Notes under the pieces: model-generated
The model's input: only the letters and a program-made list of their open reading frames with translations
Database searches by the model: none
What the model was told of the DNA's origin: nothing
Shown: in pieces, positions 13,931 through 31,143 of the stretch
How the letters are laid out: each line of letters begins with the position of its first letter
Position numbering within the stretch: position 1 is the first letter of the stretch
Program-made: the position numbers and the translations under genes
Assembly: GCF_001999765.1 (NCBI RefSeq)
Contig: NZ_KV908325.1
Coordinates: forward strand, 186,256-250,255
DNA: 64,000 nt
Source: Sinomonas mesophila
GTDB lineage: Bacteria > Actinomycetota > Actinomycetes > Actinomycetales > Micrococcaceae
Reading direction: 5' to 3'

Positions 13931-14049
13931 GGGGTCCCCCTGACTACGGTCGCGATGCCGGCATCGCGAGTCGACGCGGACGCGGCCCCTCCCTCGGGAC
14001 CGCGTCCGCTGTCTTCTGTTGTGCTGTGTCTGCCGGCCCTGGGCGCTGG

Positions 14050-14478
14050 CTAGCGCTTGGCCCCCGACTGGTCCCCGAGGTGCCAGATGTTCATGGAGGA
14101 GAGGAGCTCGCGCGGATCCCAGACGGTCCATTCCTCGGTGATGAGCCCGTCGCGGTGGCGCAGGAACGACGCGCCGTTGACGGTCACCGTGCGGTTCGTG
14201 GGCGGGACTCCCATGAACGTCCCGGTGTGCGTGCCGACGCTCTGCCAGTGGATGGCGATGAGGTCGTCGCCCTCGACGGCGTGCAGGACCTCGACCGTGA
14301 AGTCCGTGAACGCGGCGTGGGAATCCTCGATCTGGCGGAGGACGTCGGGGAGGGACACGTCCGCGCCGCCCTTCGAGTGGCGGACGTAGCCCTCGGCCAC
14401 GATGCGCTCGAAGGCGCTCGTGTCGCCGTCGCCCCAGGCGCGGCTCCAGGCCTCGGTGATGGTCTGCAGCATGGTCAT
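14050..14478 (-). CDS. SnoaL-like / ester cyclase (NTF2-fold) protein
   Basis: 142 aa, single NTF2-like domain of the SnoaL/ester-cyclase type: ITEAWSRAWGDGDTSAFERI, FTVEVLHAVEGDDLIAIHW, the GTHTGTFMGVPPTNR loop and VTVNGASFLRHRDGLITEEW. SnoaL-like proteins act as cyclases, isomerases or hydrolases on small cyclic substrates. Its ATG overlaps the stop of the flavin reductase (TCAT on the plus strand), so the two are translationally coupled. It is therefore a third component of the FMN monooxygenase operon. The same two domains are fused in one protein at 30196, which supports a shared function. Confidence 0.85.
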   Translation of the reverse strand: MTMLQTITEAWSRAWGDGDTSAFERIVAEGYVRHSKGGADVSLPDVLRQIEDSHAAFTDFTVEVLHAVEGDDLIAIHWQSVGTHTGTFMGVPPTNRTVTVNGASFLRHRDGLITEEWTVWDPRELLSSMNIWHLGDQSGAKR

Positions 14479-15068
14479 CGGTCTTCTGCTTTCTGGGTGG
14501 GTGTGGGTGTGGGTGCGGGAGCGGGCGTGGGCCAGAGCGTGAACTCGCCGAACGTGCCTCCGCGGAACACGAGGGCCTCCCCGGTGCCGGGCTCCATCGC
14601 GGTGACGGAGCCGACGATCATGTAGTGGTCGCCGGCGACGACCTCGGACACCACGTGGCAGTCGATCCACGCGGTGGAGTTGAGGATCCGCGGCGTGCCG
14701 ATGGCGCTCTGCTCGTAGTCGAGGCCTTGGAACTTGTCCTGGCCCTTGCGGGAGAGCGCCTTGCAGACGTGCAGCTGCTCGGTGGAGAGGATGTTCGCGG
14801 TGAACCGGCCGAGATTGCGCAGCGTGGGCCACGTGCTCGAGGACTTGTCCACGCAGAAGGTCACGAGGGCCGGTTCGAGGGAGAGGGACTGGAAGGTCCC
14901 CACGACGAAGCCCATGGGCTTGCCGGCGTCGGTCAGGCCGGTGATGGCGGTGACGCCGGTGGGGAGGAGCCCGAAGACCTGCCGGTAGTCGGCGGCCGTG
15001 ATGGCGGCGTCCGTGGCGGGGGGGACTGCGGCGGCGACAGAGACCGCGGCGGCTGCTGTGGTGGTCAT
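14475..15068 (-). CDS. Flavin reductase, partner of FMN-dependent monooxygenase
   Basis: 197 aa, flavin reductase-like FMN-binding domain (HpaC/NtaB-like). Core: DYRQVFGLLPTGVTAITGL (about 27-45), VVGTFQSLSLEPALVTFCVD (residues 54-73), STWPTLRNLGRFTANILS, and the C-terminal GEALVFRGGTFGEF. It reduces free FMN with NAD(P)H for the LLM monooxygenase encoded 11 bp upstream. The first 25 residues are an Ala/Thr-rich low-complexity extension and the last 20 a Pro/Thr-rich tail (PAPAPTPTPTQ), both unusual for the family. It overlaps the SnoaL-like gene by 4 bp. Confidence 0.9.
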   Translation of the reverse strand: MTTTAAAAVSVAAAVPPATDAAITAADYRQVFGLLPTGVTAITGLTDAGKPMGFVVGTFQSLSLEPALVTFCVDKSSSTWPTLRNLGRFTANILSTEQLHVCKALSRKGQDKFQGLDYEQSAIGTPRILNSTAWIDCHVVSEVVAGDHYMIVGSVTAMEPGTGEALVFRGGTFGEFTLWPTPAPAPTPTPTQKAEDR

Positions 15069-15079
15069 GGCGTTGTCCT

Positions 15080-16462
15080 TCACTTGATCTTGGCGTACAG
15101 GGCGTCGCGGAGGGCTGCGCCCGGGTGGTCCTGGGGGAGGCGGGCCTGACCGGCGCCGAAGAGGTTCTCGCGCAGGGTCGGGCCGTCGTACGAGGTGCGC
15201 ATGAGGCCCCGGGCCTGGAGCTCGGGGACCGCGAGCTCGGCGAAGTCCTTGATGTCGCGGAACTTCACGCCGTGCGCGACGTTGAACCCGTCGATCCCGG
15301 TCTCGTTGACCCAGGAGGCGAGCTCGTCGGCGACCGTCTGGGGGCCGCCGACGATGACGGGGGACGTGCCGCCGATGCCGATGTAGTCGGCGATGTCCCG
15401 TGGCGTCCACTCCTTGGTGGGGTCCATCTTCGAGAACAGGTCGACCATGGTCTGGCCGGCGTTGGTCTTGACGTTCTTGAAGGGCACGTCCGGGTCGAAG
15501 GCGGACATGTCGAGCCCGGCCCAGCCGCTGTAGCGGGCCATGGCGCCCTCGTAGGAGACGTAGCTCTTGTACTCCTCGTACTTCGCCTGGGCCTCGGCGT
15601 CGGTCGGCGCCGTGATGACCGTGATCATCTGCAGCACGGCGATGTGCGACGGGTCGCGGCCGGCCTCGACGGCCTTCGCGCGGAGGGTGTCTACCTGCTT
15701 CTTGAGCCCGGCCTTGGACGTCGCGTTCATGAACACGGCCTCCGCGGTGGCGGCCGCGAGGGCCACGCCCTTGCTCGAGCCGCCGGCCTGGAAGATGACC
15801 GGGGTGCGCTGCGGGGACGGCTCGCACAGGTGGATGCCGGGAACCGTGAAGTGCTTGCCCTGATGCCCGATCGGGTGGACCCGCGTCGGGTCCGTGTAGG
15901 TGCCGGAGGCGGCGTCGGCCGGGACCGAGCCGTCCTCCCACGATGCCTCCCAGAGCTTGAGGGCGACCTCGATGAACTCCTCGGCGAGCTCGTAGCGGTC
16001 GTCGTGCGCCTTCTGGACGCCGGTGCCCAGGTTCTTCGCGGCGCTGTCCGAGTACGAGGTCACGACGTTCCAGCCGATGCGCCCGTTCGTGAGGTGGTCC
16101 AGCGTGGAGAACTTCCGGGCGAGCGCGTACGGGTGGTCGTAGGCCGTCGTCGACGTCACGCCGAAGCCGAGGTGCTTGGTCGCCGCGGCCATCGCCGGGA
16201 TCAGGTAGGCCGGGTCGTTCGCGGGGATCTGCGCGCCGTCCTTGAGGGCGGCATCCACGCTGCCCTTGTAGACGTCGTGGTAGCCGACGTTGTCGGCGAA
16301 GAAGATGCCGTCGAAGCACGCGTCCTCGAGCATCTTGGCGTACTCCACCCAGTACTTCAGGGACGTGTACTCGGTGCCCCTGTCCTCGGGGTGCCGCCAC
16401 AGACCCGCCGAGAGGTGCGCGGGACCGTTGAAGTCGAAGGCGAAGATCCTCATCTGGGTCAT
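15080..16462 (-). CDS. NtaA/SnaA/DszA-family FMN-dependent monooxygenase (LLM class)
   Basis: 460 aa, bacterial luciferase-like monooxygenase of the nitrilotriacetate/desulfurization subfamily. Seen: MRIFAFDFNGPAHLSAGLWR at the N-terminus, EDACFDGIFFADNVGYHDVY, TSTTAYDHPYALARKFSTLD, GRIGWNVVTSYSDSAAKNLG and VIFQAGGSSKG. All are classical for this group. The enzyme uses FMNH2 from the coupled reductase and O2 to cleave C-N or C-S bonds or do Baeyer-Villiger-type oxygenation. First gene of a three-gene operon (monooxygenase, reductase, SnoaL). AAGGAA lies 7 nt before ATG 16462. A GAAC/GTTC box 55-78 bp upstream probably controls it. Confidence 0.92.
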   Translation of the reverse strand: MTQMRIFAFDFNGPAHLSAGLWRHPEDRGTEYTSLKYWVEYAKMLEDACFDGIFFADNVGYHDVYKGSVDAALKDGAQIPANDPAYLIPAMAAATKHLGFGVTSTTAYDHPYALARKFSTLDHLTNGRIGWNVVTSYSDSAAKNLGTGVQKAHDDRYELAEEFIEVALKLWEASWEDGSVPADAASGTYTDPTRVHPIGHQGKHFTVPGIHLCEPSPQRTPVIFQAGGSSKGVALAAATAEAVFMNATSKAGLKKQVDTLRAKAVEAGRDPSHIAVLQMITVITAPTDAEAQAKYEEYKSYVSYEGAMARYSGWAGLDMSAFDPDVPFKNVKTNAGQTMVDLFSKMDPTKEWTPRDIADYIGIGGTSPVIVGGPQTVADELASWVNETGIDGFNVAHGVKFRDIKDFAELAVPELQARGLMRTSYDGPTLRENLFGAGQARLPQDHPGAALRDALYAKIK

Positions 16463-16516
16463 GCCGGTTCCTTTCCGCTCTCAGTCCGGATGGAGACTCT
16501 GATTCGTTCAGATTCC

Positions 16517-16540
16517 GAACGTGATGTTTGTTCTATGAAC
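16517..16540. promoter_or_regulatory. GAAC-N16-GAAC box upstream of monooxygenase operon
   Basis: GAACGTGATGTTTG (from 16517) followed by TTCTATGAAC (to 16540); GTTC-TAT-GAAC at 16530-16540 is a perfect small palindrome and another GTTC lies at 16506. It aligns with 23599-23622 without gaps (GAACGT, 7 variable bases, GTT-TATGAAC). It sits 55 bp before the monooxygenase start, a position for an operator or activator site. Confidence 0.6.
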
Positions 16541-16559
16541 AGATTAGAGTGGCACCTGT

Positions 16560-17185
16560 CACAGCGTCAAGTGGGGAGGGCGACGGCGGATGGGGCTCCG
16601 AAAGGCGCCCGCGGCGGCGCCGGGAACGGAAGGTCAAAGGGAGGGAGAAGAGCGCGACGGCGTCGGGATGCGGGGTCATCTCTCTGGGATGCGGGGTCAC
16701 CTGAACTGGACGCGGGGGCACCTCAATCCGACGCGGGCACGCTCGATGCGGGCTTCCCGATCCTGACCGGGGACGAACAGTCGAGGAGCAGTGTCTTCAC
16801 TTCCGACTGGGGCGCCGATCTCCCGGCTCGCCCGTCTGCAGGGTCTCGTCCTGAGCTCCGGACAGGGCCGTCCAGGACGGCAGCAGCGGCGGCGGATCCG
16901 GACTCCGCCGTACCGAACTCCCCAGGTTTCGCGGCCGGAACTCCCCAACTTTAAGCTTCAACCGGCCGATTTCCTGGGCCGCGCCGCCTCGGCGGCGGCC
17001 AGACGGCCCTTAAGCCGGGGAGGCTCGTCCAGATTGGGGCGAGTGATGCCCCCCCATCGCAGGGAGGTGACCTCGCATCGTAGGGAGGTGACCCCGCGTC
17101 GCAGGGAGGTGACCCCGCGTTTTGCCAGTCCCAACGCCGGTCAGGTTCCGCGTTCCTGAGCGGCCGGCAATTCGACGAGTGAGCC
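16560..17185. other. Gene-poor spacer of about 620 bp with repeat units
   Basis: No open frame here has a convincing start and ribosome binding site. It contains copies of the GCGGGGTCACC / GGTGACCCCGC repeat at about 16674-16738 and in direct array at 17054-17120. A G/C-rich stretch between them has the words CTCCCCAGGTTT and CTCCCCAACTTT. It looks like degraded intergenic sequence. Confidence 0.6.
17054..17120. repeat. GGGAGGTGACCCCGC intergenic repeat array (copy 1 of the window)
   Basis: Three direct units of about 22 bp: CATCGCAGGGAGGTGACCTC, then CATCGTAGGGAGGTGACC and CGTCGCAGGGAGGTGACC. Related single units are at 16674-16738 in opposite orientation (GATGCGGGGTCACCT). Members of this family recur at 21917, 37495, 45330, 54641 and 57850. 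Confidence 0.85.
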
Positions 17186-17323
17186 TCAGCTCCGCGCGGC
17201 GCCGACCTTCCGGGGGTCCGCACCTGCGGGCCGCGGCTGCTGTTCACGTGGGCTCGCGTCATCCTCCGCCTGCTCCTGGAGCCACTCGAGCATGTGCTCG
17301 TGGACCAGGGTCCGCCGCTTCAC
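17186..17323 (-). CDS. Small hypothetical protein (45 aa)
   Basis: Too short for usual gene callers. GTG 17323 follows AGAGAGGA with a 7-nt gap. The product begins VKRRTLVHEHMLEWLQEQAE, predicted amphipathic helix, then a Pro/Arg/Gln-rich tail to the stop at 17186. No known motif. It is divergent from the PAS gene at 17479. Ribosome binding site and a sensible amphipathic helix argue for translation; there is no homology evidence. Confidence 0.4.
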   Translation of the reverse strand: MKRRTLVHEHMLEWLQEQAEDDASPREQQPRPAGADPRKVGAARS

Positions 17324-17478
17324 GATGATGTCCTCTCTCCGTCCGGCGCGGGGGCCGGTCAATTTATGGAGAACTGTTGCCCGGCGGCGGGCGGTTCAAC
17401 CCGATCCGGGCAGATCCCCGGGGCTTGACCCAGCAGGGTCGCCCTCCTAGCGTCAGGGCAAGTGAAAGGAGCCTTGTG

Positions 17479-17862
17479 ATGATGGAGTCGCACGAGACCG
17501 CGCTCGCGGAGCTGGCCAGGCATCTGAAGCCGGTGTTCGAGCAAAGCCCGGACGGCGTCTACCTCTGGCTCGATGAGAAGCACAAGGTCTGCAACGAGCA
17601 GTTGGCCACGATGTTCGGGTACGACGTCGGCGAGTGGCAGGCGGTCGACGACTTCGCGGCGACGTTCATCGCGGAGGAGAGCCGGTCACTGTACGTCTGG
17701 CACTATCAGCACGAGGTCGCCGAACTGAGGTACCCGGTGTCGTTCCGCTTCCGCGGGAAGCGCAAGGACGGGTCAACCTTCGACGCAGAGACGGACATGA
17801 TCCCGCTGACGTACGCCGGGCACGTCGTGGCGTACCACTTCGTCCGCCAGCTCGGCACCTAG
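17479..17862 (+). CDS. Single-domain PAS protein (128 aa)
   Basis: One PAS fold and nothing else: HLKPVFEQSPDGVYLWLDEK at residues 14-33, then VCNEQLATMFGYDVGEWQAV, FRFRGKRKDGSTFDAETDMI and a final beta strand GHVVAYHFVRQLG. PAS domains bind small ligands or cofactors and pass the signal to an output domain; here none is attached, so it must act through a partner. Start chosen at ATG 17479, 8 nt after AAAGGA; GTG 17476 is possible. It stands alone between the repeat-rich spacer and the aldehyde dehydrogenase, and a role in sensing within the catabolic region is only a guess. Confidence 0.8.
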   Translation: MMESHETALAELARHLKPVFEQSPDGVYLWLDEKHKVCNEQLATMFGYDVGEWQAVDDFAATFIAEESRSLYVWHYQHEVAELRYPVSFRFRGKRKDGSTFDAETDMIPLTYAGHVVAYHFVRQLGT

Positions 17863-17927
17863 CTACACCACGGTGACGGAGGCGCCCCGCCCCCGGGGCC
17901 CACGCACCACGAGGCAAAGGTGACTCG

Positions 17928-19436
17928 TCAGTGACCCTGCCTGTGCATGACGTGCTTGGTCCGCGAGTAGTCGTCGAGGGCGTAGATCGAGAGGTCGCGG
18001 CCGTAGCCGGAGCCCTTGAACCCGCCCCACGGGACCTCGTTGGCGAGCACCAAGTGCGAGTTCACCCACACGGTCCCGGCGTCGATCCGGGAGGCGACAT
18101 CGTGGCTGCGCCGGGCGTCCTCGGTCCACACGGAGGCGGCGAGGCCGAATGGGACATCGTTGGCCCGGGCGATCGCCTCGGCCTCGTCCGAGAACGTCTC
18201 GACCGTGACGACGGGGCCGAAGATCTCCTCGCGGGAGCACTCGGCGCCGTCGGGCACGTCCACGAGCACGGTCGGCGCGACGAAGTAGCCTGGGCCCTCG
18301 AGCGCCGAGCCTCCGACGGCGGCACGGATGCCCGCCGCCTTGGCACGCTCGAGGTAGCCCAGGACCCGCTCGTAGTGGTCCTTGGAGTTCAGCGGGCCGA
18401 TCTCGACGTCCTTCCCGGCGCCGGGCTCGCCCACCACGAGGGTGCTGACCTCCTTCACGAGGAGCTCGGTGAACTCCGCGGCGACGGACTCGTGCACGAG
18501 GACGCGGCAGGCGGCCCCGCACTCCTGCCCCGAGTTCCAGTACCCGGCGGCGCGCAGCGACTCGGCGGCCGCGGCGAGGTCGGCGTCGGCGAAGACGACG
18601 ACGGGCGCCTTGCCGCCGAGCTCGAGGTGCACGCGCTTGAGCGACTCGGCGGCGCCGCGGGCCACGGCCTGGCCGCTGCCCACCGACCCGGTGAGGGCGA
18701 TCATCGCCACGTCCGGGTGCTCCGAAAGCCGCTGGCCGACGACGGACCCGCGGCCCGTGACGACGTTGAACACGCCGGCGGGCAGGAGGTCCGCGACGAG
18801 CTCGGCGAACTTGAGCGTCGTGAGCGGGGTCTGCTCCGAGGGCTTGAGCACGATCGAGTTCCCCGCGGCGAGGATCGGGGCGACCTTCCACGCGCCCATG
18901 AGCAGCGGGTAGTTCCACGGCGTCACGACCCCGACCACGCCGAGGGGCTCGCGCAGGATCAGGGACAGGTGGCCCTCGGCGTACTCCCCGGCGGCCATCG
19001 ACGTCGTCGCGCGCAGGGCTCCGGCCATGAAGCGGAACGTGTCGATGGTCCCGGCGACTTCGTCCTCGGCGACCATGGCCGGCTTGCCCGTGTTGGCGGA
19101 CTCGAGCCGGGTCAGGAGGTCGGCGTTCTCGGCGAGGCGGTCGGCGATCCGGTGCAGGATCTCCGAGCGCTCCTTGGGCACCATCCGGCCCCACTCGCCC
19201 TGGGCGGCCAGGGCCGCGGCGACGGCGGCGTCGACTTCCTCGACCGTGCCGGAGGCGACCGTGGCGATGGGCGCGCCGGTGCACGGGTCGATGACCTGGG
19301 TGACGGGGCCCGAGGTCCCGGGCCGGAAGGCGCCGTCGATGAAGTGCTGCCCCGGGGGCAGCTCCGCCTCGGTGACGAGGGGGCCGGGGGCCTGGGAGCG
19401 GCGGACCTGGGTGGGGTTGCTGACCGAGATGGACAT
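17928..19436 (-). CDS. NAD-dependent aldehyde dehydrogenase (betaine/aminobutyraldehyde DH-like)
   Basis: 502 aa. Full ALDH set: VVTPWNYPLLMGAWKVAP (about 165-182), the KPSEQTP Lys, ALTGSVGSGQ NAD loop, base Glu in LELGGKAPVVVF, nucleophile Cys in WNSGQECGAACR (about 300) and EIFGPVV. It resembles the betaine-aldehyde/4-aminobutyraldehyde group that oxidises aldehydes released by amine oxidases. It is the last gene of the unit amine oxidase - DapA-type lyase - ALDH (gap 13 bp), so the aldehyde probably comes from these two enzymes. AAGGAAAGGG precedes ATG 19436. Confidence 0.9.
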   Translation of the reverse strand: MSISVSNPTQVRRSQAPGPLVTEAELPPGQHFIDGAFRPGTSGPVTQVIDPCTGAPIATVASGTVEEVDAAVAAALAAQGEWGRMVPKERSEILHRIADRLAENADLLTRLESANTGKPAMVAEDEVAGTIDTFRFMAGALRATTSMAAGEYAEGHLSLILREPLGVVGVVTPWNYPLLMGAWKVAPILAAGNSIVLKPSEQTPLTTLKFAELVADLLPAGVFNVVTGRGSVVGQRLSEHPDVAMIALTGSVGSGQAVARGAAESLKRVHLELGGKAPVVVFADADLAAAAESLRAAGYWNSGQECGAACRVLVHESVAAEFTELLVKEVSTLVVGEPGAGKDVEIGPLNSKDHYERVLGYLERAKAAGIRAAVGGSALEGPGYFVAPTVLVDVPDGAECSREEIFGPVVTVETFSDEAEAIARANDVPFGLAASVWTEDARRSHDVASRIDAGTVWVNSHLVLANEVPWGGFKGSGYGRDLSIYALDDYSRTKHVMHRQGH

Positions 19437-19449
19437 GGCTTCCCTTTCC

Positions 19450-20343
19450 TTAGCGGACGTTCTGGTAGAGGGCGGCGAGGGCGTCCTTGACCCGGGCGTG
19501 GTCGGCGGCGCCGAGCACGGCGGTGGGGCGGCGCGGGGCCCCGGCGGGGAGCCCCTGCAGGGCCAGGCCGGCCTTGACCGAGGGGATGAACGGCACGGAC
19601 AGGAGCGCGTCGATGACGGGGTAGAGGGCGTTCCACCGCTCGCGGGCGCCGGTCAGGTCGCCCTCCGCGATGCGGCGGGCGACGTCGACGATCTCGCCCG
19701 GGACGACGTTGGCCGTGCCGGCCATGACCCCGGCCGCGCCCTCGACGAGGGCGCTGTAGAGGTAGGCGTCCCAGCCGATGAACGTGCCGATCACGTCGCT
19801 GTGGTGGTGGATGAGCTGGAGCGCCTGCTCCCAGTTCGCGCTCGAGTCCTTGATGTAGCGGATGTTCTCGACGTCCTCGGCGAGCGAGCGGACCGTGGCC
19901 GGGTCCAGGTTCACGCCCGTGACGGCCGGGATGTTGTAGAGCATGACCGGGATGCTGACGGAACCGGCGACGTCCTTGAGGTACGCGACCGTCTCCTCGA
20001 CGCTGAGCGGCTCGTAGTACGGCGTGATCAGCATGAGCACGTCCGCGCCCGACTTCTCGGCCGCCTTCGAGAGGCGGATCGCCTCGGCCGTCGAGGTGGC
20101 GCCGGTCTGGGCGATGACCGGGACGCGTCCGGCCGTGTGCTCGATGACCGTGTCGATGAGGAGCAGGCGCTCCTCCGAGGACAGGGCCCCGACCTCGCCG
20201 GTCGAGCCCGCGGCGACGACGCCGTCGACGCCGGCCTCGATCGAGCGGTCGACGACGCGCCGCAGGGTCGCGACGTCGATCGCCTCGTCAGAGGTGAAGG
20301 GGGTTGCCAGCGCCGTCAGGACGCCCGTGAGCTGCTTGGACAT
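19450..20343 (-). CDS. DapA-family lyase/deaminase (dihydrodipicolinate synthase-like)
   Basis: 297-aa class I aldolase-fold enzyme. GVVAAGSTGEVGALSSEER (about 40-58) is the substrate-carboxylate loop, the Tyr is in PVMLYNIPAVTGV, the Schiff-base Lys in IRYIKDSSAN (about 165). Family members include dihydrodipicolinate synthase, 2-keto-3-deoxy acid aldolases/dehydratases and pyrroline-4-hydroxy-2-carboxylate deaminase. In an amine-oxidase operon and near a KGSADH gene a catabolic lyase or deaminase role is far more likely than lysine synthesis. The hydroxyproline-type deaminase, which yields ketoglutarate semialdehyde, is one testable option. Confidence 0.87.
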   Translation of the reverse strand: MSKQLTGVLTALATPFTSDEAIDVATLRRVVDRSIEAGVDGVVAAGSTGEVGALSSEERLLLIDTVIEHTAGRVPVIAQTGATSTAEAIRLSKAAEKSGADVLMLITPYYEPLSVEETVAYLKDVAGSVSIPVMLYNIPAVTGVNLDPATVRSLAEDVENIRYIKDSSANWEQALQLIHHHSDVIGTFIGWDAYLYSALVEGAAGVMAGTANVVPGEIVDVARRIAEGDLTGARERWNALYPVIDALLSVPFIPSVKAGLALQGLPAGAPRRPTAVLGAADHARVKDALAALYQNVR

Positions 20344-20400
20344 GTTTGGTTGTTCTCCCTGGGAAGCGTGGGAAGCGTTGGATTTGGGAGCGGGGCCGGT

Positions 20401-21789: not shown

Positions 21790-21848
21790 GGCATGTGTTT
21801 CCTTCTCAAGCTGGAGGTCGGCCGGCTCGCTGTGGCGGCACTCACATA

Positions 21849-21895: not shown

Positions 21896-21916
21896 GGAAG
21901 GACCAGGTCCAAGCCG

Positions 21917-21992: not shown

Positions 21993-22004
21993 GACCCGCC
22001 GGCG

Positions 22005-23496: not shown

Positions 23497-23598
23497 TCCG
23501 GCACCCCTTCCGCTATTTCCCACAACCCTAAATGTTGATCGGAGAGGGGGACAAGCGAGGAGGGCCGGCGGTACGTCGCGGACCCGGGGAATCGTTCT

Positions 23599-23622
23599 GA
23601 ACGTCCTGCTCGTTTTATGAAC
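23599..23622. promoter_or_regulatory. GAAC-N16-GAAC box between GntR gene and quinone oxidoreductase
   Basis: GAACGTCCTGCTCG then TTTTATGAAC, preceded directly by GTTCT so that GTTC-T-GAAC forms a tight palindrome at 23594-23602. It aligns gap-free with the box at 16517. It ends 32 bp before ATG 23654 and lies about 100 bp before the GntR start, so it could control both directions. Confidence 0.58.
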
Positions 23623-23653
23623 GTCAAGTCGCGTGACATTGAAGGAGCCTTAC

Positions 23654-24673
23654 ATGCCGTACGCCATGCAGATCCCCCGCGCCGGCGGTCCGGACGTCTT
23701 CGAGCGGATCGAGGCCCCGCGCCCGGTCCCTGGACCCGGGCAGGTGCTCGTGCGCGTCGCGGCGATCGGGATGAACTTCATCGAGACGTACCAGCGCGCG
23801 GGCGTCTACGCCGTCGACTATCCCTTCGTCCCGGGCGTCGAGGCGGCCGGGACGGTCGTGGATCTCGGACCGGGCGTCGCCGGCCTCGCCCCGGGCGACA
23901 GGGTGGCGACGACGGAGGGCACCGGCAGCTACGCCGAGTACATGCTGCTCGACGCCGACAAGGCGCTCCCCGTGCCGGACCGCGTCCCCGACGACGTCGC
24001 GGGGCGCGCTTCCGGCGCAGGGCATCACCGCGCACTACCTCATCACCTCGAGCTACCGCGTGCAGCCCGGCGATACCGTCCTGACCTACGCCGGGGCGGG
24101 GGGAGTCGGGCTCCTGCTGATCCAGATGCTCAAGCTGCGCGGCGCGGCGGTGATCACGACGACGTCGACCCCGGAGAAGGCCGAGCACGCGCGGGCCGCC
24201 GGCGCCGACCACGTCCTCGAGTACGCGGAGGTGCCCCGCCGCGTGCGCGAGCTGACCGGCGGCCGGGGCGTCGACGTCGTCTACGACGGCGTCGGCAAGG
24301 ACACCTTCGAGGCGTCGCTGGACTCCCTGCGCGTGCGCGGCACACTCGTGCTCTTCGGCGGCGCGTCCGGGCAGGTCCCGCCGTTCGACCTCCAGCAGCT
24401 CAACGCCCACGGGTCCCTGACCGTCACGCGCCCCAAGATCGACGACTTCCTGCTCACCGAGCAGGAGCGGCGCTGGCGCTCCGACGAGGTCTTCGGACTG
24501 GCCGCCGAGGGAGGCTCAAGGTCACCATCGGCGCGCGCTTCCCCCTCGAGCGGGCGGGCGGGGCGCATGCGGCGCTCGAGTCGCGGGCCACGACGGGCAA
24601 GGTCATCCTGCTGCCGGCCGTTGGGGCTCGATCATCGGACGCTCACGCAGCGACTGGCAAGATGGCCCGGTGA
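23654..24673 (+). pseudogene. Quinone oxidoreductase with two compensating frameshifts
   Basis: GAAGGAG precedes ATG 23654. MPYAMQIPRAGGPDVFERIE, GMNFIETYQRAGVYAVDYPF and GVEAAGTVVDLGPGV are a normal zinc-independent quinone oxidoreductase N-terminus. Near 24005-24010 homology moves to another frame (LPAQGITAHYLIT, VLTYAGAGGVGLLLIQMLK, FGGASGQVPPF). Near 24512-24516 it returns to the first (RLKVTIGARFPLERAGGAHA, TGKVILLPA). One base gained and one lost fit. The original frame stays open throughout, so a 339-aa protein with a nonsense middle could be made. Sequencing error is the main alternative. The stop overlaps the GTG of the following hydrolase. Confidence 0.8.
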
Positions 24674-25500
24674 AGACTCACGAGCTGACCAGAACTCTCG
24701 TCTGGCAGGGCCGTACCGTGTCCTGGGATCGCTTCGGACAGGGCCCGGCTCTCGTCCTCCTGCACGGCACACCCTGGTCATCGGCACTATGGCGCCCGGT
24801 CGCTGACGCCCTCGCCGACCGCTTCACCGTCTACCTCTGGGACATGCCGGGCTACGGCGCGTCGTCCAAGGACCCAGAACACGCCGTCGACCTCGGCGCT
24901 CAGGGCGAGCTGTTCGCGCACCTTCTCCATGAATGGCAGCTCGAGCGGCCCCACGTCATCGCGCACGACGTCGGCGGCGCCGTCGCTCTACGTGCCCGGC
25001 TACTCCACGGGGCACGGTACTCCTCCCTTTGCCTCGTCGACGTCGTGGCCCTTGCCCCCTGGGGCTCATCCTTCTTCACCCTCGTCAAGCAGCATGCAGG
25101 CGTCTTCGCGCAGCTCCCATCGGCAATCCATCGCGGTTCCGTTGAGGCCTATATACGCGGAGCGAGCCACCGTGGGCTGCGGGATGACGACCTCGCGATG
25201 CTCGTCGATCCCTGGACAGGGAAGGAAGGGCAAGCTGCCTTCTACCGGCAGATCGCCCAGGCGGACGAGCGCTTCACCGATGAGGTCGAGCCTCTGTACG
25301 GAACGATTGATGAGCCGACGCACATCATCTGGGGCACCGACGACACCTGGATTCCTGTCGACCGCGCGCACCGCCTCCAAGCACTGATCCCGCACGCAAC
25401 ACTTGAACTCATTCCAGAGGCGGGCCACCTCATTCACCTCGACGCTCCAGTCCAGCTCGCCGCAGAACTCGTGCGCTGGACCGAAACCGTCCGGTCGTAG
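24670..25500 (+). CDS. Alpha/beta hydrolase with Asp nucleophile (epoxide hydrolase/haloalkane dehalogenase type)
   Basis: 276 aa. Oxyanion segment LVLLHGTPWSSALWRPVA (about 28-45) with HGTPW. Nucleophile elbow is AHDVGGAVALR (about 97), i.e. Asp in place of Ser, as in haloalkane dehalogenases, haloacetate dehalogenases and epoxide hydrolases. Acid Asp in IIWGTDDTWIPV; catalytic His in PEAGHLIHLDAP near the C-terminus. The gene uses the GTG at 24670 that overlaps the upstream TGA. Codon usage is visibly less GC-biased than neighbours (for instance CTCTGTACGGAACGATTGAT), suggesting recent acquisition. Not certain to be part of the same pathway. Confidence 0.85.
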   Translation: MKTHELTRTLVWQGRTVSWDRFGQGPALVLLHGTPWSSALWRPVADALADRFTVYLWDMPGYGASSKDPEHAVDLGAQGELFAHLLHEWQLERPHVIAHDVGGAVALRARLLHGARYSSLCLVDVVALAPWGSSFFTLVKQHAGVFAQLPSAIHRGSVEAYIRGASHRGLRDDDLAMLVDPWTGKEGQAAFYRQIAQADERFTDEVEPLYGTIDEPTHIIWGTDDTWIPVDRAHRLQALIPHATLELIPEAGHLIHLDAPVQLAAELVRWTETVRS

Positions 25501-25520
25501 GCGTCTCAGCTCACTCGGCG

Positions 25521-26036
25521 TCAGAGGGCGGCGACGGCCACCACCTCCGGGCGGCCGGGGCCCGGGCCGGGCGCCATGTCCACGAGGGCGAGCTGCGCGA
25601 GGTCCAGCCGCTGGCCAGGGATCGCGCGCCCGCGGCTCGTCGCCGTGACGTGCGGGCGGAACCCCGCCCCGGTGAAGTGCGGGTTCTCGTACGCGAAGCG
25701 CCCCGCGAGCTCCGCGGCGAGCCTGCGCGAAAACCACGAGTGCAGCGACTCGAGCCCGGGATGCGGCTCGACGAGGGCCACGGGCGTGTCGTGCCGGGCG
25801 CCGAAGAGCTCCTCCGCCCCCGCGGTGCACGCGAGCGGGGCATGCCCGCGCGCCGCGTCGCCGAGGACGTGCGCGAGGAGGGGAGTGCCCGCCGTCGTCC
25901 GGAACACCGGCGCGATGGTGACGTGCAGCGGCCAGTCGCGCACCGCATAGCGCTCGCCGACCGCCATGGGCACCAAAGGGAGGACGACGGCGAAGCGGCG
26001 CCACCCGCCGTCGTGCGCGCCAGGCAGCAGCGGCAC
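25521..26036 (-). CDS. 2'-5' RNA ligase family (2H phosphoesterase) protein
   Basis: 171 aa from GTG 26036 (start not certain). Two HxT motifs spaced as in the 2H superfamily: PLHVTIAPVF (about residue 38) and RPHVTATSRG (about residue 130). The superfamily includes 2'-5' RNA ligase/cyclic phosphodiesterase ThpR. Between them lies LHSWFSRRLAAELAGRF. The frame stays open further upstream but that part is Arg/Ser-rich and looks non-coding. The RNA substrate, if any, is unknown. It is convergent with the alpha/beta hydrolase, 20 bp between stops. Confidence 0.78.
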   Translation of the reverse strand: MPLLPGAHDGGWRRFAVVLPLVPMAVGERYAVRDWPLHVTIAPVFRTTAGTPLLAHVLGDAARGHAPLACTAGAEELFGARHDTPVALVEPHPGLESLHSWFSRRLAAELAGRFAYENPHFTGAGFRPHVTATSRGRAIPGQRLDLAQLALVDMAPGPGPGRPEVVAVAAL

Positions 26037-26037
26037 C

Positions 26038-26142
26038 CTAGTGGGCCGCGATCGCGAGGAAGCGGATCGGCAGCTCGACGAGCCGCAGCGGCCCCTGCCT
26101 CGCGCTCGGGCCACCCTCGGGAGGGGTCGGCCGGTGGGTCAC
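26038..26142 (-). CDS. Possible short ORF (34 aa) ahead of 2H phosphoesterase
   Basis: GTG 26142 lies behind a strong GGAGGGGACC. The product is short: MTHRPTPPEGGPSARQGPLR followed by LVELPIRFLAIAAH, stop at 26038, one base before the next GTG. It may be a leader peptide for translational coupling or a conserved small protein; the ATG at 26166 would add 8 residues. It could also mark a frameshifted N-terminus of the phosphoesterase. Low support beyond the ribosome binding site. Confidence 0.3.
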   Translation of the reverse strand: MTHRPTPPEGGPSARQGPLRLVELPIRFLAIAAH

Positions 26143-26252
26143 GGTCCCCTCCTCGATGGGCGTCATGCTGGGAGTATAGGCATGTACAAGGTGTGATTCA
26201 TCGGCCTCTCCGTGGGGCGGCCCACCCGGACCCGCCCCACTAGGCTGACCCC

Positions 26253-27185
26253 ATGACCTCCACCGCCCCCGCCCTCCGCGTCGCCGTCCACGGCGAGCTG
26301 CTGCCCTACCTCACCGGCGCGATCGAGGCGGGAGGAGGCGGCGTCGTCGGGCTCCACGACGAGCCCGAGGCCCTCGTCCTGGACCACGGCAACGACAAGT
26401 CCGCGCTCAAGGGCATCCTCGACGCGACGCCGTCGATCCGCTGGGTGCAGCTGCCCTCGGCCGGGATCGAGGCGTACGCCGACGCGCTCGCGGCGCACCC
26501 CGAGAAGCTCTGGACGAGTGCCAAGGGCGCCTACGCCAAGCCCGTCGCCGAGCACGCCCTCGCCCTGATTCTTGCGCTCCTGCGGCATCTGCCCGAGCGC
26601 GCCACCGCCCGCTCGTGGGGCCGCTCCGCCGGCACGTCGCTGCACGGGCTGCGCGCGGTCGTCATCGGTGCCGGGGGAGTGGGGCTCGAGACGCTCCGGC
26701 TGCTCCTGGCGTTCGACGTCGAGGTCGACGTCGTGCGCCGCACCCCCGCGCCCGTCCCCGGCGCCCGGAGCACAACGACGACGGCGGACATGCCCGCGCT
26801 CTTGCCGGAGGCCGACGTCGTCATCGTCGCCGCGGCGCTGACCCCCGGGACGGCGCGGCTCATCGGAGAGGCGGAGCTCGAGGCCATGAAGCCGTCCGCG
26901 GTGCTGGTGAACATCGCGCGGGGCGGGCTCGTCGACACGGACGCGCTCGTCGCCGCGCTCGCGGACGGGCGCATCGCCGGCGCGGCCCTCGACGTGACCG
27001 ACCCCGAGCCGCTGCCCGACGGGCACCCGCTCTGGGACGAGCCGCGGGCCCTCATCACTCCCCACACCGCGGACACGATCGAGATGATCCGCCCGCTCCT
27101 CGGCGAGCGCGTCACGGAGAACCTGCGCCGGCTCGCCGAGGGCCGCCAGCTCGAGGGCCTCGTGGACGCCGCCGCGGGGTACTGA
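26253..27185 (+). CDS. D-isomer-specific 2-hydroxyacid dehydrogenase
   Basis: 310 aa, NAD-binding 2-hydroxyacid dehydrogenase. Rossmann motif VVIGAGGVGLETLRLLLAF (about 137-155), the substrate-binding Arg in NIARGGLVDTDAL (about 222), Glu in DVTDPEPLPDGHPLW and catalytic His in LITPHTADT (about 270). The N-terminal catalytic half is compact (WVQLPSAGIEAYADAL). It reduces 2-oxo acids to D-2-hydroxy acids or the reverse; hydroxypyruvate or glyoxylate reductase are common roles. It is monocistronic-looking; a 23-bp-stem hairpin follows. Confidence 0.9.
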   Translation: MTSTAPALRVAVHGELLPYLTGAIEAGGGGVVGLHDEPEALVLDHGNDKSALKGILDATPSIRWVQLPSAGIEAYADALAAHPEKLWTSAKGAYAKPVAEHALALILALLRHLPERATARSWGRSAGTSLHGLRAVVIGAGGVGLETLRLLLAFDVEVDVVRRTPAPVPGARSTTTTADMPALLPEADVVIVAAALTPGTARLIGEAELEAMKPSAVLVNIARGGLVDTDALVAALADGRIAGAALDVTDPEPLPDGHPLWDEPRALITPHTADTIEMIRPLLGERVTENLRRLAEGRQLEGLVDAAAGY

Positions 27186-27200
27186 CCCCCGCCTTCCCTT

Positions 27201-27267
27201 CCCAACGCCGCATCGCAACACGCGGGAATGGCTCCGGGATAACAGCGTGTTGCGATGCGGCGTTGGG
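27201..27267. repeat. Palindromic intergenic repeat AACGCCGCATCGCAACACGC (copy 1)
   Basis: Left arm 27201-27223 and right arm 27245-27267 pair over 23 bp without mismatch, loop about 21 nt. The 20-nt arm core is identical to the element at 59390-59450. It lies right after the dehydrogenase stop and ends 20 bp before the start of the next gene, so it may act as terminator or as structured leader. Confidence 0.9.
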
Positions 27268-27287
27268 GGGCCTGCGAGGATGGGACG

Positions 27288-27785
27288 GTGACGATCCTCA
27301 AGACGAGCCCCGCAGGCACCGTGACCCCCCGCTCCCTCTACCGCGCGCTCGCGCTGGCCGAGATGGCCACGTGGACCATGCTCATCGTGGGCATGGTGCT
27401 CAAGTACGTGGTCCGGGTCGGCGACTGGCCCGTGCAGGTGGCCGGCATGGCTCACGGGATCGTCTTTGTCTCCTTCGCCGTGACGGCCGCGTTCGTCGGC
27501 GTGAACCAGCACTGGCCCGTGGCGCGGATCGCCGCCGCGGTCGCGACCGCCGTCGTACCCTACGCGACGTACCCGTTCGACCGCTGGCTCGAGCGCGGGG
27601 GCCACCTCGAGGGCGGCTGGCGGCGCGAGCGCACCGACGACCCGCGCGACCACACCGCGGCGAGCGCCGTCCTGCGCGTGCTGCTTGCGCACCCACTCGC
27701 GCTCGGCGCGGGGATGGCCGTCGCCGTGGCCGGGATCGTCGCCACGCTCCTCTTCCTCGGCCCGCCCACCGAGTGGGGCCGCTGA
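27288..27785 (+). CDS. DUF3817-type integral membrane protein
   Basis: 165 aa, three to four hydrophobic segments: ALAEMATWTMLIVGMVLKYV (about 20-40), GMAHGIVFVSFAVTAAFVGV (about 54-73), IAAAVATAVVPYATYPFDRW and ALGAGMAVAVAGIVATLLFL at the C-terminus. The N-terminal E-x-x-T-W-T and AHG...F motifs are those of DUF3817, a widespread actinobacterial membrane family of unknown role. GTG 27288 follows GAGGATGGGAC. It is preceded by the palindromic repeat and followed 37 bp later by a Nudix gene. Confidence 0.82.
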   Translation: MTILKTSPAGTVTPRSLYRALALAEMATWTMLIVGMVLKYVVRVGDWPVQVAGMAHGIVFVSFAVTAAFVGVNQHWPVARIAAAVATAVVPYATYPFDRWLERGGHLEGGWRRERTDDPRDHTAASAVLRVLLAHPLALGAGMAVAVAGIVATLLFLGPPTEWGR

Positions 27786-27822
27786 TCCTCCGGCCATGCC
27801 GTGCCGGACTAGATTGAGGCGC

Positions 27823-28605
27823 ATGGGACACGCTGAAGAGACGGCCGACTCGCCGCTCGTGGGGGAGGCCGCGACCGTCGTGCTGCTGCGCGAGGCGCCT
27901 GAAGCGGCAGGCGTGGAGGTGCTCCTCCTCGAGCGGCCCCACTCGGGCACCTTTGCCGGCGCGTGGGTCTTCCCGGGCGGGCGTGTGGACCCGGAGGACG
28001 CCGTCGCCGGTGAGGCGGTGGCAGGGGAGTCGGGCGGCGATGCGCCTCCCTGGGATCCCGCGCACGACGCCGGGTGGCCGGCGTGGCGGGGCGTCCCGCC
28101 GGAGCACGGGGCGGCGCTGGGCCGGGCCGCCGTGCGCGAGACGCTCGAGGAGACGGGCCTCGCGCTGGACGCCGCCGCCCTCGTCCCCCTGTCCCACTGG
28201 ATCCCGCCGATCGGGGCGCCCAAGCGGCTGCGCACGTGGTTCTTCCTCGCAGAGCACCCGGGCGGTGAGGTGCGGCTCAACCCGGGCGAGCACGTCGGCT
28301 TCGAGTGGCTCACGCCCGCCGCAGCGCTGGAGCGGCACGCGGACGGCGACGTCGTCCTCGCTCCGCCCACGTGGATGACCCTCCACGGCCTGCGCGAGGC
28401 GGCCGGCGTGCGGGCGGTGCTCGCGGCGCGTGCGGCCGTGCCCGGGTTCGAGCGCTATTTCAGCCATCCGCTCCGCGGCCAGGACGGCGTGCTCGCGGTC
28501 ATGTGGGAGGGCGACGCCCAATACGACGACCCCTTCGCGGGCGGGCACGCGCGGCACCGCCTCTGGACCGCATCCCTCCCCTGGCGCTACGAGCGCACGC
28601 CCTGA
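27823..28605 (+). CDS. Nudix hydrolase
   Basis: 260 aa. The Nudix helix is present but interrupted by an insertion: FPGGRVDPEDAVAG, a 35-residue Gly/Pro/Trp-rich insert, then GRAAVRETLEETGLAL with the R-E-T-x-E-E catalytic core. This GGR-insert layout is seen in the RNU7/NUDT19-like group that hydrolyses CoA or other nucleoside-diphosphate derivatives; the assignment to a substrate is inference. The C-terminal half includes HGLREAAGVRAVL. ATG 27823 has GAGG upstream. A strong hairpin at 28633 ends the transcript. Confidence 0.85.
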   Translation: MGHAEETADSPLVGEAATVVLLREAPEAAGVEVLLLERPHSGTFAGAWVFPGGRVDPEDAVAGEAVAGESGGDAPPWDPAHDAGWPAWRGVPPEHGAALGRAAVRETLEETGLALDAAALVPLSHWIPPIGAPKRLRTWFFLAEHPGGEVRLNPGEHVGFEWLTPAAALERHADGDVVLAPPTWMTLHGLREAAGVRAVLAARAAVPGFERYFSHPLRGQDGVLAVMWEGDAQYDDPFAGGHARHRLWTASLPWRYERTP

Positions 28606-28632
28606 CCCGGCAGACCCTCCGATCCCCAACAG

Positions 28633-28671
28633 CGCCCCTCGTCATGGACTGCATGACGAGGGGCGCTTCAG
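28633..28671 (+). terminator. Rho-independent-type terminator after Nudix gene
   Basis: GCGCCCCTCGTCATG pairs with CATGACGAGGGGCGC across a short ACTG loop, 15 bp, immediately followed by TTCAG. No long T-run, as is usual in actinobacteria. Confidence 0.8.
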
Positions 28672-28672
28672 T

Positions 28673-28718
28673 GCGCCCTCAAAAAGGTATTGCCTTAATC
28701 ATACAATGATATATATTT
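28673..28718 (+). promoter_or_regulatory. Conserved promoter/operator element B (shared with 21849)
   Basis: GCGCCCTCAAAAAGGTA then TTGCCTTAATCATACAATG. TTGCCT (28690-28695) and TATATT (28712-28717) are 16 bp apart. Compared with element A the first 36-38 bases differ at only a few positions and one small gap, and the distance between the two hexamers is the same. It directs transcription towards the damaged MFS gene. The AT-rich patch stands out sharply from the GC-rich surroundings. Confidence 0.6.
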
Positions 28719-28832
28719 AGTGGCACACATCACGCCTCGAGCAGCGGGGCGAAGGAAGGGTGGCAGCGGACGCGCAGTGCCGAGCGCGGTCCATCGTGAT
28801 CAGGCCGCCCTTCGGACCAAAGGAGTGATCCA

Positions 28833-30100
28833 GTGTCAGCACTAAACAACGCAACGACGAGTCGGGGAGGTGCCTCGACGGCGAGCAAGCGGCGCTTCCC
28901 GTGTCGGGGAGGATGGCGGAGGACCTTCAGCTCACGGCGTTCTGGCAGGGCCTCATCGCCGCGGCCGCGCTGATCGGCATCCTGATCGGCTCGCCGCTCG
29001 GCGGCTGGGCCGCCGACAAGTTCGGCCGCAAGCCGATCTTCATGTTCGACATCGGCCTCTTCGCCATCGGCTCGGGCATGCAGTTCTTCGTCGACTCACC
29101 GGCGCTGCTCATCGTCGTGCGGCTGCTCATGGGCATCGCGATCGGCACCGAGTACGCGGTGGGCTGGCCCCTCATGGCCGAGTTCTCGCCCACCCATCTG
29201 CGCGGGAAGCTCATGGCCGCCATGGGCATCGCCTGGTACGGCGGCTTCATGGTCGCGTTCCTGATCGGCCACCTGCTCAGCGAGTACACCGACCTGAGCT
29301 GGCACTTCATCCTGGGCACGAGCACCTTCCTCGCGGTGGCGCTGTTCCTCGCCCGGCTTGGCCTGCCGGAGTCGCCGCGCTGGCTGTGGAGCGTGGGCCG
29401 CAAGGACGAGGCCCGCGCCCTCGCCTACAGGTACATGCCCGACGACGCGCTCGACGACGTCCAGCACGAGGACGTGCGCAAGGGCACCTTCGGCATGCTG
29501 TTCTCCAAGGACTACTGGCGTGCCACGCTCTTTATCTCCGGGTTCTGGTTCTGCGCCGTGACGCCCTACTTCGCGATCGCCACCTTCGCCGACAGCGTGC
29601 TGCAGCAGTACGGCCTCGCCGGCGGGCTTGCCGGCGGCGTGGGGCTCTCTGCCGTCGCGCTGGCCGGGGTCGTCCTCACCTTCCTGCTGATCGAAAGGAT
29701 CGGCCGACGCACGCTGACCGTCCCGCCGCAGTGGCTGTGCGCGATCGTCCTCGCGATCATCGGCCTCTGGGCCGGGGCGCCGGCCATCGTGGTGCTCATC
29801 CTCTTCCTGGTCTTCTCCTTCTTCAACGCGGGGTACAACACGCTGACGAACGTCTACCCCGGCGAGGTCCTCCCGACCGAGATCCGAGGGATCGGAACGG
29901 GGTTCTCGGCCGCCGTCAGCCGCGTGGGGGCCGGCATCGGCATCTTCCTCCTGCCGATGTCGATGGAGAGCCTCGGGGCCGGTCCGACCATGCTGATCGC
30001 CGCCGGAGTCGCCCTCGTCGGTGCCGCCCTGTCCCAGTGGCTGGCTCCCGAGACGAAGGGCAAGACCCTGACCGAGGCCGCAGCGGGGTACTCGCACTGA
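28833..30100 (+). pseudogene. MFS transporter lacking TM1 (5' internal deletion with frame change)
   Basis: GTG 28833 (AAAGGAG upstream) opens a normal-looking N-terminus, MSALNNATTSRGGASTASKR then RF, matching the start style of the intact paralogue at 3356 (tail then KQRRF). Instead of TM1 the sequence jumps near 28896-28901, in another frame, to GRMAEDLQLTAFWQGLIAAA, which corresponds to the loop before TM2. About 27 residues (TM1) appear deleted. From there on the rest is intact: LGGWAADKFGRKP, ESPRWLW, PETKGKTL. Translation from GTG 28901 would give a 399-aa protein with 11 helices. Probably non-functional. Confidence 0.78.
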
Positions 30101-30125
30101 TCATGCGCAGGCCCTGACCACGCGA

Positions 30126-30169
30126 GTGAGCGGACGACGGCGGGTGGGAACCCGCCGTCGTCCGCTCAC
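30126..30169. terminator. Perfect 20-bp-stem hairpin between convergent genes
   Basis: GTGAGCGGACGACGGCGGGT (30126-30145), GGGA loop, and the exact complement at 30150-30169. It lies between the stop at 30100 and the convergent stop at 30196, so a bidirectional terminator. The GACGACGGCG(G) core recurs in hairpins at 32665 and near 48468 and 59984. Confidence 0.85.
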
Positions 30170-30195
30170 GTGGTGCCGCTGCGACGAGACCCGGG

Positions 30196-31143
30196 TCAGA
30201 GCTCCTCGAGGCGGGCGCCGTCGAAGAAGTGGCCGGCCTTGTAGACCATGGGATGGGCCTCTCCCACCTCGGCGTGGCGGACGCGGCCGACGAAGATCGT
30301 GTGGGTCTTCGCCTGGAAGCGCTCCTTGATCTCCGCCTCGAGCGAGGCGGCCGAGCCGTCGATGAGCGGGGTGCCGTGGGGGCCGGCGTGCCACTCGAGG
30401 TCGGCAAACTTGTCCGGGGCCTTGGACGCGAAGGTGCGCACGGTGCCCAGTTGGTCGTTGCTGAGGATGTTGATCCCCAGATGCGAGGACTGGAACAGCG
30501 CCGGGTAGGTCGAGGACGTCTTCTGGACGCAGACGAGCACGAGCGGCGGGTCCAGCGAGATCGAGGCGTAGGAGTTGGCGGCGAGGCCGCGCGGTCGCCC
30601 CTCGTCGTCGACCGTCGTCACGACGGTGACGCCCGTGATGAACTGCCGGTTGAACCCCTTCATGACGTCGGAGGGGAGATTGCCGGAGAGGTTGTCCACG
30701 ACGACGTCCGGGGCCTCCTCGAACGCCGAGCCGAGGGACGGGACGCCGAGGTCGGCCAGGAGCTCGGCGGAGTCCCACGTGACGCGCTCGTAGGCGATGC
30801 GGCCATCGCGCAGCGTGAGCGCGTTCGAGCCCCGGGTCTCGACGACGCCGCCCGTGGGCGGGACCCCGCGGAGCGGCTGCGTGAACGTGCCGGTCGTCGT
30901 CCAGAAGATCGCGACGTCGTCGCCGCTCGCGATGACCTTGTCGATGCGCGTTGTGAGATCGGGGAATGCTGCCCGGACGTCGAGGACCTCCTGCTTGAGC
31001 TCGGCAAGGCCCGTGACCTTCTTCGTTCCGGTGCTCTCGCGCTGGTAGTCGGCGGTGACGATCGCGTCGAGGGCATCGACGTCGCCCTCGTCCCACGCTG
31101 CCTTCCAGGCTGCTGTCACAGTGTCGGTGATCGTCGGTTGCAT
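30196..31143 (-). CDS. SnoaL-like domain fused to flavin reductase domain
   Basis: 315 aa in two parts. Residues 1-135: NTF2/SnoaL-like domain (VTAAWKAAWDEGDVDALDAI, the GTFTQPLRGVPPTGG loop, LTLRDGRIAYERVTW). Residues about 155-312: flavin reductase FMN-binding domain (FNRQFITGVTVVTT, GLAANSYASISLDPPLVLVC, NILSNDQLGTVRTFASKAPD, GHFFDG). At 14050 and 14475 the same two domains are separate, adjacent and translationally coupled. The fusion therefore links both activities in one reaction sequence, presumably with an FMN monooxygenase. No clear SD before ATG 31143. No monooxygenase gene is adjacent. Confidence 0.88.
   Translation of the reverse strand: MQPTITDTVTAAWKAAWDEGDVDALDAIVTADYQRESTGTKKVTGLAELKQEVLDVRAAFPDLTTRIDKVIASGDDVAIFWTTTGTFTQPLRGVPPTGGVVETRGSNALTLRDGRIAYERVTWDSAELLADLGVPSLGSAFEEAPDVVVDNLSGNLPSDVMKGFNRQFITGVTVVTTVDDEGRPRGLAANSYASISLDPPLVLVCVQKTSSTYPALFQSSHLGINILSNDQLGTVRTFASKAPDKFADLEWHAGPHGTPLIDGSAASLEAEIKERFQAKTHTIFVGRVRHAEVGEAHPMVYKAGHFFDGARLEEL

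Follow-up and report, generated by a model that had tools for sequence, protein, structure and literature searches.

The window analysed here is the whole stretch of 64,000 nucleotides from Sinomonas mesophila (contig NZ_KV908325.1, positions 186,256–250,255). It contains two places in which a SnoaL-like domain goes together with a flavin reductase (FR), both on the minus strand. In one of them three genes follow each other in the order luciferase-like monooxygenase (LLM), FR and SnoaL, which we will call the triad; in the other one SnoaL and FR form a single protein. The same pairing is found in relatives of several genera. The four genes are:

15080–16462, minus strand: oxygenase component, an LLM of the NtaA/DmoA family, 460 amino acids (TIGR03860, 532.3 bits, cut-off 279.7)
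14475–15068, minus strand: flavin reductase, 197 amino acids (PF01613, 119.9 bits, cut-off 27)
14050–14478, minus strand: SnoaL-like protein, 142 amino acids (PF07366, 88.3 bits, cut-off 28.4)
30196–31143, minus strand: SnoaL-FR fusion, 315 amino acids, with SnoaL at residues 9–132 and FR at 166–308 (PF07366, 95.6 bits; PF01613, 139.2 bits)

The triad is compact: 11 bases separate the stop of the LLM gene from the start of FR, and the stop of FR shares the letters ATGA with the start of SnoaL, a 4-bp overlap. A sequence-only reading of this DNA had placed these two overlapping genes at 14050–15068, behind an NtaA/DszA-type monooxygenase, and had described a two-domain protein of 315 residues with SnoaL at residues 1–135. 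The coordinates are exact, and the domain scores given above agree with both identifications. All three triad proteins exceed the curated Pfam cut-offs. For the FR and SnoaL of the window every score of the NCBIfam models is under its cut-off. The model of SnoaL/DnrD polyketide methyl ester cyclases (NF033407) gives 15.2 bits for the SnoaL at 14050–14478, with a cut-off of 200, and does not list the fusion; the ketosteroid isomerase-related model (TIGR02096) gives 49.9 and 60.7 bits for the two SnoaLs of the window, under a cut-off of 97.1. PF13577 had two weak matches, both away from these genes. By sequence, the best PDB match of the LLM is 6ak1, annotated as a dimethyl-sulfide monooxygenase (502 bits), and those of SnoaL are 8ysb (a predicted ester cyclase), IdmH and AclR.

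The SnoaL of the triad and that of the fusion are 38% identical; their two FRs are 35% identical. In an AlphaFold2 model of the fusion residues 1–130 have block means of 61–91 and the order of helices and strands of NTF2-like proteins; from residue 132 onward, in the FR half, the predicted confidence (pLDDT) is below 50, with an alignment of ten rows. A Foldseek search with this model places AclR and SnoaL2 at the top and IdmH next, ChaU and KstA15 lower, and SnoaL itself in 45th position. Such model-based rankings, as well as those in the PDB, are weak evidence. The neighbours of the fusion are a protein of the class I/II aminotransferase family (31266–32588) and a major facilitator superfamily (MFS) transporter (28913–30100). 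An inverted repeat with 19-nt arms, perhaps a terminator, can be seen by eye at 31192–31240, where the aminotransferase-family gene and the fusion face each other.

The pairing does not arise from chance neighbourhood. This genome has 8 places with PF07366 and 6 with PF01613: assuming 3,700 genes, and counting the fusion as one pair, 0.026 adjacent SnoaL/FR pairs are expected and the probability of two or more is 2.6e-4, while two are found. A general tendency of SnoaL genes to adjoin reductases is also rejected: with neither FR query did tblastn find a match at any of the five other SnoaL places in this genome, or at any of 23 distant SnoaL relatives from a draw of 296 genomes of the phylum, within flanks of about 1.5 kb which are shorter at contig ends and in which a very divergent FR could escape tblastn. 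In this genome the same queries did recover four further FRs, which are divergent. Conversely, twelve other FR loci (L017–L028) contained no relative of the FR-associated SnoaL.

The possibility that the pairing is unique to this genome, which the sequence-only reading had named as a refutation beside a missing SnoaL domain in the fusion, can be discarded, as fusions, split pairs and triads are found across genera and on plasmids. A scan of genome contigs gave 26 loci. Twelve of them (L003–L013, L016) have the full-length fusion, in Pseudarthrobacter, Arthrobacter, Sinomonas, Rothia and Corynebacterium; two have separate adjoining SnoaL and FR genes (L014, Streptomyces; L015, Specibacter); in the remaining 12 the match is confined to FR or to a part of it. 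With SnoaL as a query (E <= 1e-15), 26 of the family's 149 genomes had matches, at 31 places in all: 22 fusions, one split pair (G143), seven triads including that of the window, and one decayed copy. There is an in-frame stop in one fusion (G112) and a TAG inside the match of one triad (G099). The sequence-only reading had proposed a Rosetta-stone link between both domains and a search for such architectures and their neighbours. The link is real and recurrent: at 30 of the 31 places SnoaL is fused to FR or lies beside it, the 31st being the decayed copy, with a remnant of FR, and the pair is harboured by the same cluster whether fused or split. The fusion query was matched in 25 of the 149 genomes, with a full-length fusion in 23; the other two are G143, with its split pair, and G122, in which FR and SnoaL adjoin in reversed order. 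Among plasmids the SnoaL query found four records: one has the fusion, in two SnoaL has LLM and FR as neighbours, and in the fourth, from Salipiger, neither of these is annotated. On an Agrobacterium plasmid the order is hydrolase, LLM, SnoaL, a small open reading frame, FR and coenzyme A transferase, with a 4-bp overlap of LLM and SnoaL; LLM, SnoaL and FR follow one another in this way on a Rhizobium plasmid too.

One genome has a second, decayed copy of the triad (L045, G000:C10:104000-122000, at 6505–8473). The frame of its LLM is broken and about 0.47 kb have been lost, with the end of LLM and most of FR; its SnoaL is open and 98% identical. An assembly fault is a possible cause. In the window, at 17047–17118, a 30-nt motif is repeated three times with a spacing of 21 nt; related stretches are found in L045 and near 45413–45462 of the window.

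The FR-associated SnoaLs form one group. Its study takes each place once and excludes L001, L002 and L015; the trees also exclude L004, L007, L008, L045 and L061; duplicates may persist among the genome sets beyond L015/L051. Both trees are unrooted, and treekit flagged long branches in them. A branch of the SnoaL tree (100/99) separates the 38 FR-associated rows, without exception, from 28 other SnoaLs. In the tree of the reductases, the FRs of fusion type form one group with L059, L062, L065 and the split pairs (99/99), and the triad FRs join four FRs from loci that showed no SnoaL (95/85). The SnoaL tree places the split pairs outside the fusions (L014 only tentatively) and the FR tree places them inside, a conflict which leaves room both for a single fusion and for re-splitting. 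The LLM partners are of five types, only 23–32% identical between types: window/L046/L047, L014/L016, L051, L062 and L059, the last one a presumed partner, since its LLM is about 2.8 kb away from the SnoaL/FR pair. As judged from these sequences, one SnoaL group exchanges partners, with two FR lineages and five LLM types.

This group also has its own signature. An alignment of 36 rows was extended to 43 with L004, L007, L008, L045, L052, L056 and L061: R33 is found in 42 of them, W78 in all 43, E or D at position 116 in all 43, W120 in 42 and D121 in 39. In the 28 control SnoaLs the counts are 4 for R33, 6 for W78, 1 for E116, 3 for W120 and 27 for D121. The exceptions are L070 for R33, L047 for W120, and L056, L059, L062 and L065 for D121. 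Both SnoaLs of the window retain this family-wide Asp121 (in P0006 numbering), which may correspond to the catalytic D121 of SnoaL itself.

The triad has a recognizable cluster around it. An NtaA-type LLM accompanies it in all seven non-decayed loci, including the window (L030 ends at a contig end). L047, L048 and L050 have, one after the other, NtaA-type LLM, amine-oxidase-like protein, two FRs, SnoaL, aldehyde dehydrogenase, hydratase and FAA hydrolase; their LLM is 52–54% and their amine-oxidase-like protein 85–90% identical to those of the window. These clusters include an MFS transporter, and L047 and L048 an IclR regulator. L030 and L046 have LLM (about 73%), FR (75–78%), SnoaL and hydratase, with a dehydrogenase additionally in L046. 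The window has relatives of the triad-cluster genes at 2381–12541 and 13105–16462, in a rearranged order. Apart from the triad they are:

2381–3193, minus strand: IclR regulator (PF01614/PF09339); relatives in L047 and L048
3356–4732, minus strand: MFS transporter (PF00083/PF07690); relatives in L047–L050
5608–7191, plus strand: aldehyde dehydrogenase (PF00171); its relative directly adjoins SnoaL-FR in L047, L048 and L050
7216–8001, plus strand: 2-oxo-hept-4-enedioate/2-keto-4-pentenoate hydratase-like protein (TIGR02312, 190.7 bits, under the cut-off of 351.5); its relative comes after the triad in L030 and L046
8034–8879, plus strand: FAA-hydrolase family protein (PF01557, 217 bits)
8931–10250, plus strand: flavin amine-oxidase family protein (PF01593, 199 bits); its relative, 85–90% identical, adjoins LLM in L047–L050
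10275–11420, plus strand: zinc-type alcohol dehydrogenase/quinone oxidoreductase-like protein (PF00107); an 80% relative in L050
11417–12541, plus strand: enolase-superfamily (MR/MLE) protein, cis-3-hydroxyproline dehydratase-like (NF043002, 325 bits, under the cut-off of 500); relatives in L049 and L050
13105–13467, minus strand: cupin (PF05899); an 88% relative in L047

The family models tried gave no name for the substrate of the window cluster, their scores being under cut-off. It is also apparent that L047, L048, L049 and L050 have two different FR genes in each LLM cluster, only one of which adjoins SnoaL.

The cluster of the fusion is a different one. We counted 26 loci with long flanks, two of which (L015 and L051) are a single contig, so that 25 are distinct; fusions with short flanks are outside this count. 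In 24 of the 25 an LLM and a GntR regulator accompany the fusion or its split form, together with two AA_synth proteins (PF06684), a tautomerase, an aldehyde dehydrogenase and an alpha/beta hydrolase; two genomes have the pair in this cluster as separate adjoining genes. The Specibacter version has a different LLM (28%), and the copy in plasmid pDCT5 has an extra riboflavin kinase and a succinate-semialdehyde dehydrogenase. The exception is a plasmid of A. crystallopoietes (L070): its fusion adjoins a nicotinate phosphoribosyltransferase, and it is the only one of the 43 FR-associated rows lacking R33. The AA_synth pair is conserved beside LLM, aldehyde dehydrogenase, hydrolase and tautomerase in L003–L016, L051–L058, L060, L061 and L064; some of these loci carry an NCS1 permease or an isochorismatase.

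In Proteobacteria we find related clusters in which the reductase has other companions. From 326 plasmid records with the LLM we picked by hand four clusters (Rhizobium lentis, Leisingera, Thioclava and pSymA of S. meliloti) which contain LLM, FR, hydrolase, dehydrogenase and one AA_synth; their LLM is about 50% identical to that of L016. In the first three the FR is extended at its C terminus by a tail of about 150 amino acids, which belongs to no significant Pfam family in the three that were scanned (one of them, L068, has a match under cut-off). The FR of S. meliloti (L072, 6069–7004) has the same length and is nearly letter for letter the chain of 3rh7, a solved structure titled putative oxidoreductase SMa0793; its cluster in pSymA is located near noeB. 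In the loci read SnoaL and the C-terminal tail are mutually exclusive. A Mesorhizobium version (L069, 6205–8004) has an alpha/beta hydrolase fused to FR. Apparently the reductase can take different domains as partners.

How might these proteins work together? We tentatively propose a three-component flavin mononucleotide (FMN) monooxygenase module in which SnoaL processes an unstable product of the LLM, a reading to which we give barely short of an even chance. From what is known of their families, the FR would make reduced FMN, and the LLM would use it with O2 to oxygenate the substrate, perhaps with opening of a ring. SnoaL, kept near the reaction through fusion to the reductase or translational coupling, would receive the unstable oxygenated product in its barrel and carry out a proton-transfer step (isomerisation, dehydration or ring opening), after which the downstream aldehyde dehydrogenase and the hydratase or hydrolase would act. 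In such a module SnoaL would be catalytic, its ligand would be the LLM product and the three proteins may be in physical contact. What the sequences show is the domains, the order of the genes, the fusion, their conservation and the exchange of partners. In favour of the module are the constancy of the SnoaL-FR link (30 of 31 places), the LLM in all seven non-decayed triads and in the cluster of 24 of 25 fusion or split loci, the pairing of one SnoaL group with two FR lineages and five LLM types, and the signature residues. The nearest folds of the fusion model, AclR and SnoaL2, agree with it, as SnoaL2 acts with a reductase on an O2 adduct. A more general statement is possible, although we would sooner doubt it than assert it: LLM-type FMN monooxygenases would have a transferable SnoaL-fold third component, with the signature R33/W78/E-D116/W120, which docks with FR and is required for clean turnover whichever the LLM, either by processing the product or by controlling the delivery of reduced flavin.

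Several observations weigh against the proposed module. In the loci read the fusion is always to the reductase, never to the LLM. No LLM adjoins the fusion of the window, and a search of this genome (E <= 1e-20) did not find the LLM usual in its cluster; the same query had matches in G061 and G104, of the same genus, and a partial one in G006. A search for AA_synth was negative in this genome and also in control genomes, so that it is uninformative. The window fusion is an orphan: it supports the link by its architecture and not by a local operon. Of the two operons linked by the sequence-only reading, that of the triad stands, while the fusion lies outside any LLM operon. Neither FR nor LLM is annotated within 8 kb of the Salipiger plasmid SnoaL (L063), 36% identical to that of the window. 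The fusion query has matches in 424 plasmid records, but only 2 of these cover 80% of it, and most match the FR part alone. The signature is constant though the diverse LLMs may yield different products; its conservation is partly shared ancestry, and position 121 is Gln or Asn in L059, L062, L065 and L056 (Asn in L059 and L056). Finally, in the four proteobacterial clusters SnoaL was neither annotated nor found by BLAST, which indicates that it is dispensable for some LLMs of that kind.

These clusters, with the alternative tails of their reductases, are the strongest argument for a different role, a serious rival though rather unlikely: SnoaL could serve the reductase as a regulator or in the handling of flavin. 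It would sense the substrate, or hold or guide reduced FMN, and so match NADH oxidation and the release of reduced FMN to the demand of the LLM with little leak of H2O2. SnoaL indeed tracks the reductase and not the oxygenase, the proteobacterial tail stands in its place, and a signature constant across very different LLMs suggests that the ligand may be common to them, for example flavin. The C-terminal domain of the reductase of p-hydroxyphenylacetate hydroxylase is an effector-sensing inhibitor. However SnoaL is free-standing in the triads, most members retain Asp121, and the nearest folds of the model, AclR and SnoaL2, are hydroxylase-type SnoaL proteins. It is improbable that SnoaL is just a plain pathway neighbour, an ordinary later catabolic enzyme whose fusion to FR reflects only co-expression: several later enzymes do belong to these catabolic operons, but the same SnoaL group stays with FR and LLM although these enzymes differ among clusters. 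We consider quite improbable a second oxygenation beside that of the LLM, in which flavin reduced by FR would reduce a quinone-like intermediate, O2 would add to it and SnoaL would resolve the hydroperoxide, as in SnoaL2. The Foldseek order agrees with it, the Asn at position 121 of L059 and L056 has its counterpart in AclR and ChaU, and according to PMC12281474 SnoaL2 works with a reductase and prevents the build-up of H2O2. In the same paper the reductase, SnoaW, is a short-chain dehydrogenase/reductase (SDR) and not an FR; besides, Asp121 is found in most members, and with an LLM in nearly all the loci read a second oxygenation would be redundant.

Two-component FMN monooxygenases carry out ring opening and the cleavage of stable bonds in the catabolism of pollutants and alkaloids, and are usually viewed as an oxygenase plus a reductase. 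If some of them need a SnoaL partner, as in the module that we propose, it would explain why rebuilt systems couple poorly or lack products. Since fused and split forms both exist, this is easy to test. The systems described here resemble the NtaA/DmoA ones in having LLM and FR in one operon, with an LLM above the TIGR03860 cut-off; they differ by a third, SnoaL-like gene which overlaps FR and, in the second system, by the fusion of SnoaL to FR. Among the papers listed by full-text searches of the open-access literature, which mostly leaves out subscription papers, we recognised no description of an LLM-FR-SnoaL module. A search of the open-access literature for the Arthrobacter pyridine cluster gave nothing usable; Arthrobacter sp. 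68b is reported to have a pyr cluster with a reductase, PyrE, which could be a SnoaL-FR fusion. In gene content (LLM, FR, aldehyde dehydrogenase and hydrolase) the fusion cluster is also like the trigonelline clusters of the TgnA/TgnB type, a likeness at the level of the tgn enzyme set. In the proteobacterial version SnoaL is absent and the FR carries a different C-terminal tail; the succinate-semialdehyde dehydrogenase of pDCT5 parallels the pSymA cluster of S. meliloti. TgnA/TgnB opens the aromatic ring of trigonelline (PMC8269262).

Partners with a SnoaL fold are known in other systems that use O2. In the anthracycline 1-hydroxylases SnoaL2/SnoaW and KstA15/KstA16 a SnoaL-fold protein acts with a reductase (PMC12281474). 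SnoaL2 is among the nearest folds of our fusion model, but the reductase is an SDR and the pathway belongs to secondary metabolism, whereas here the partner is a PF01613 reductase. In the catabolism of indole and indoleacetic acid (iac/iif) the SnoaL-fold proteins IacI and IifA are clustered with a flavin monooxygenase and its FR, with oxygenases of groups D and E instead of LLM; the role of IacI is unproven, and dioxindole-3-acetic acid (DOAA) was not converted by IacB/IacI (PMC7225977). In JsFMO, a type II flavin monooxygenase (FMO), an N-terminal SnoaL-like domain precedes the monooxygenase domain of the same protein and has no direct interaction with the active site (PMC10028610). The NTF2-like ActVI-ORFA is reported to direct flux by preventing the degradation of an intermediate (PMC11315284). 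The sequence-only reading had considered a SnoaL-like third component as not described: this is only partly right, since for the LLM-FR-SnoaL arrangement we recognised no description, but SnoaL-fold parts of other oxygenase systems (SnoaL2/SnoaW, IacI/IifA, type II FMOs) were already known. If the proposed module is true, the SnoaL-like parts of iac/iif and of the type II FMOs would gain a common role that can be tested.

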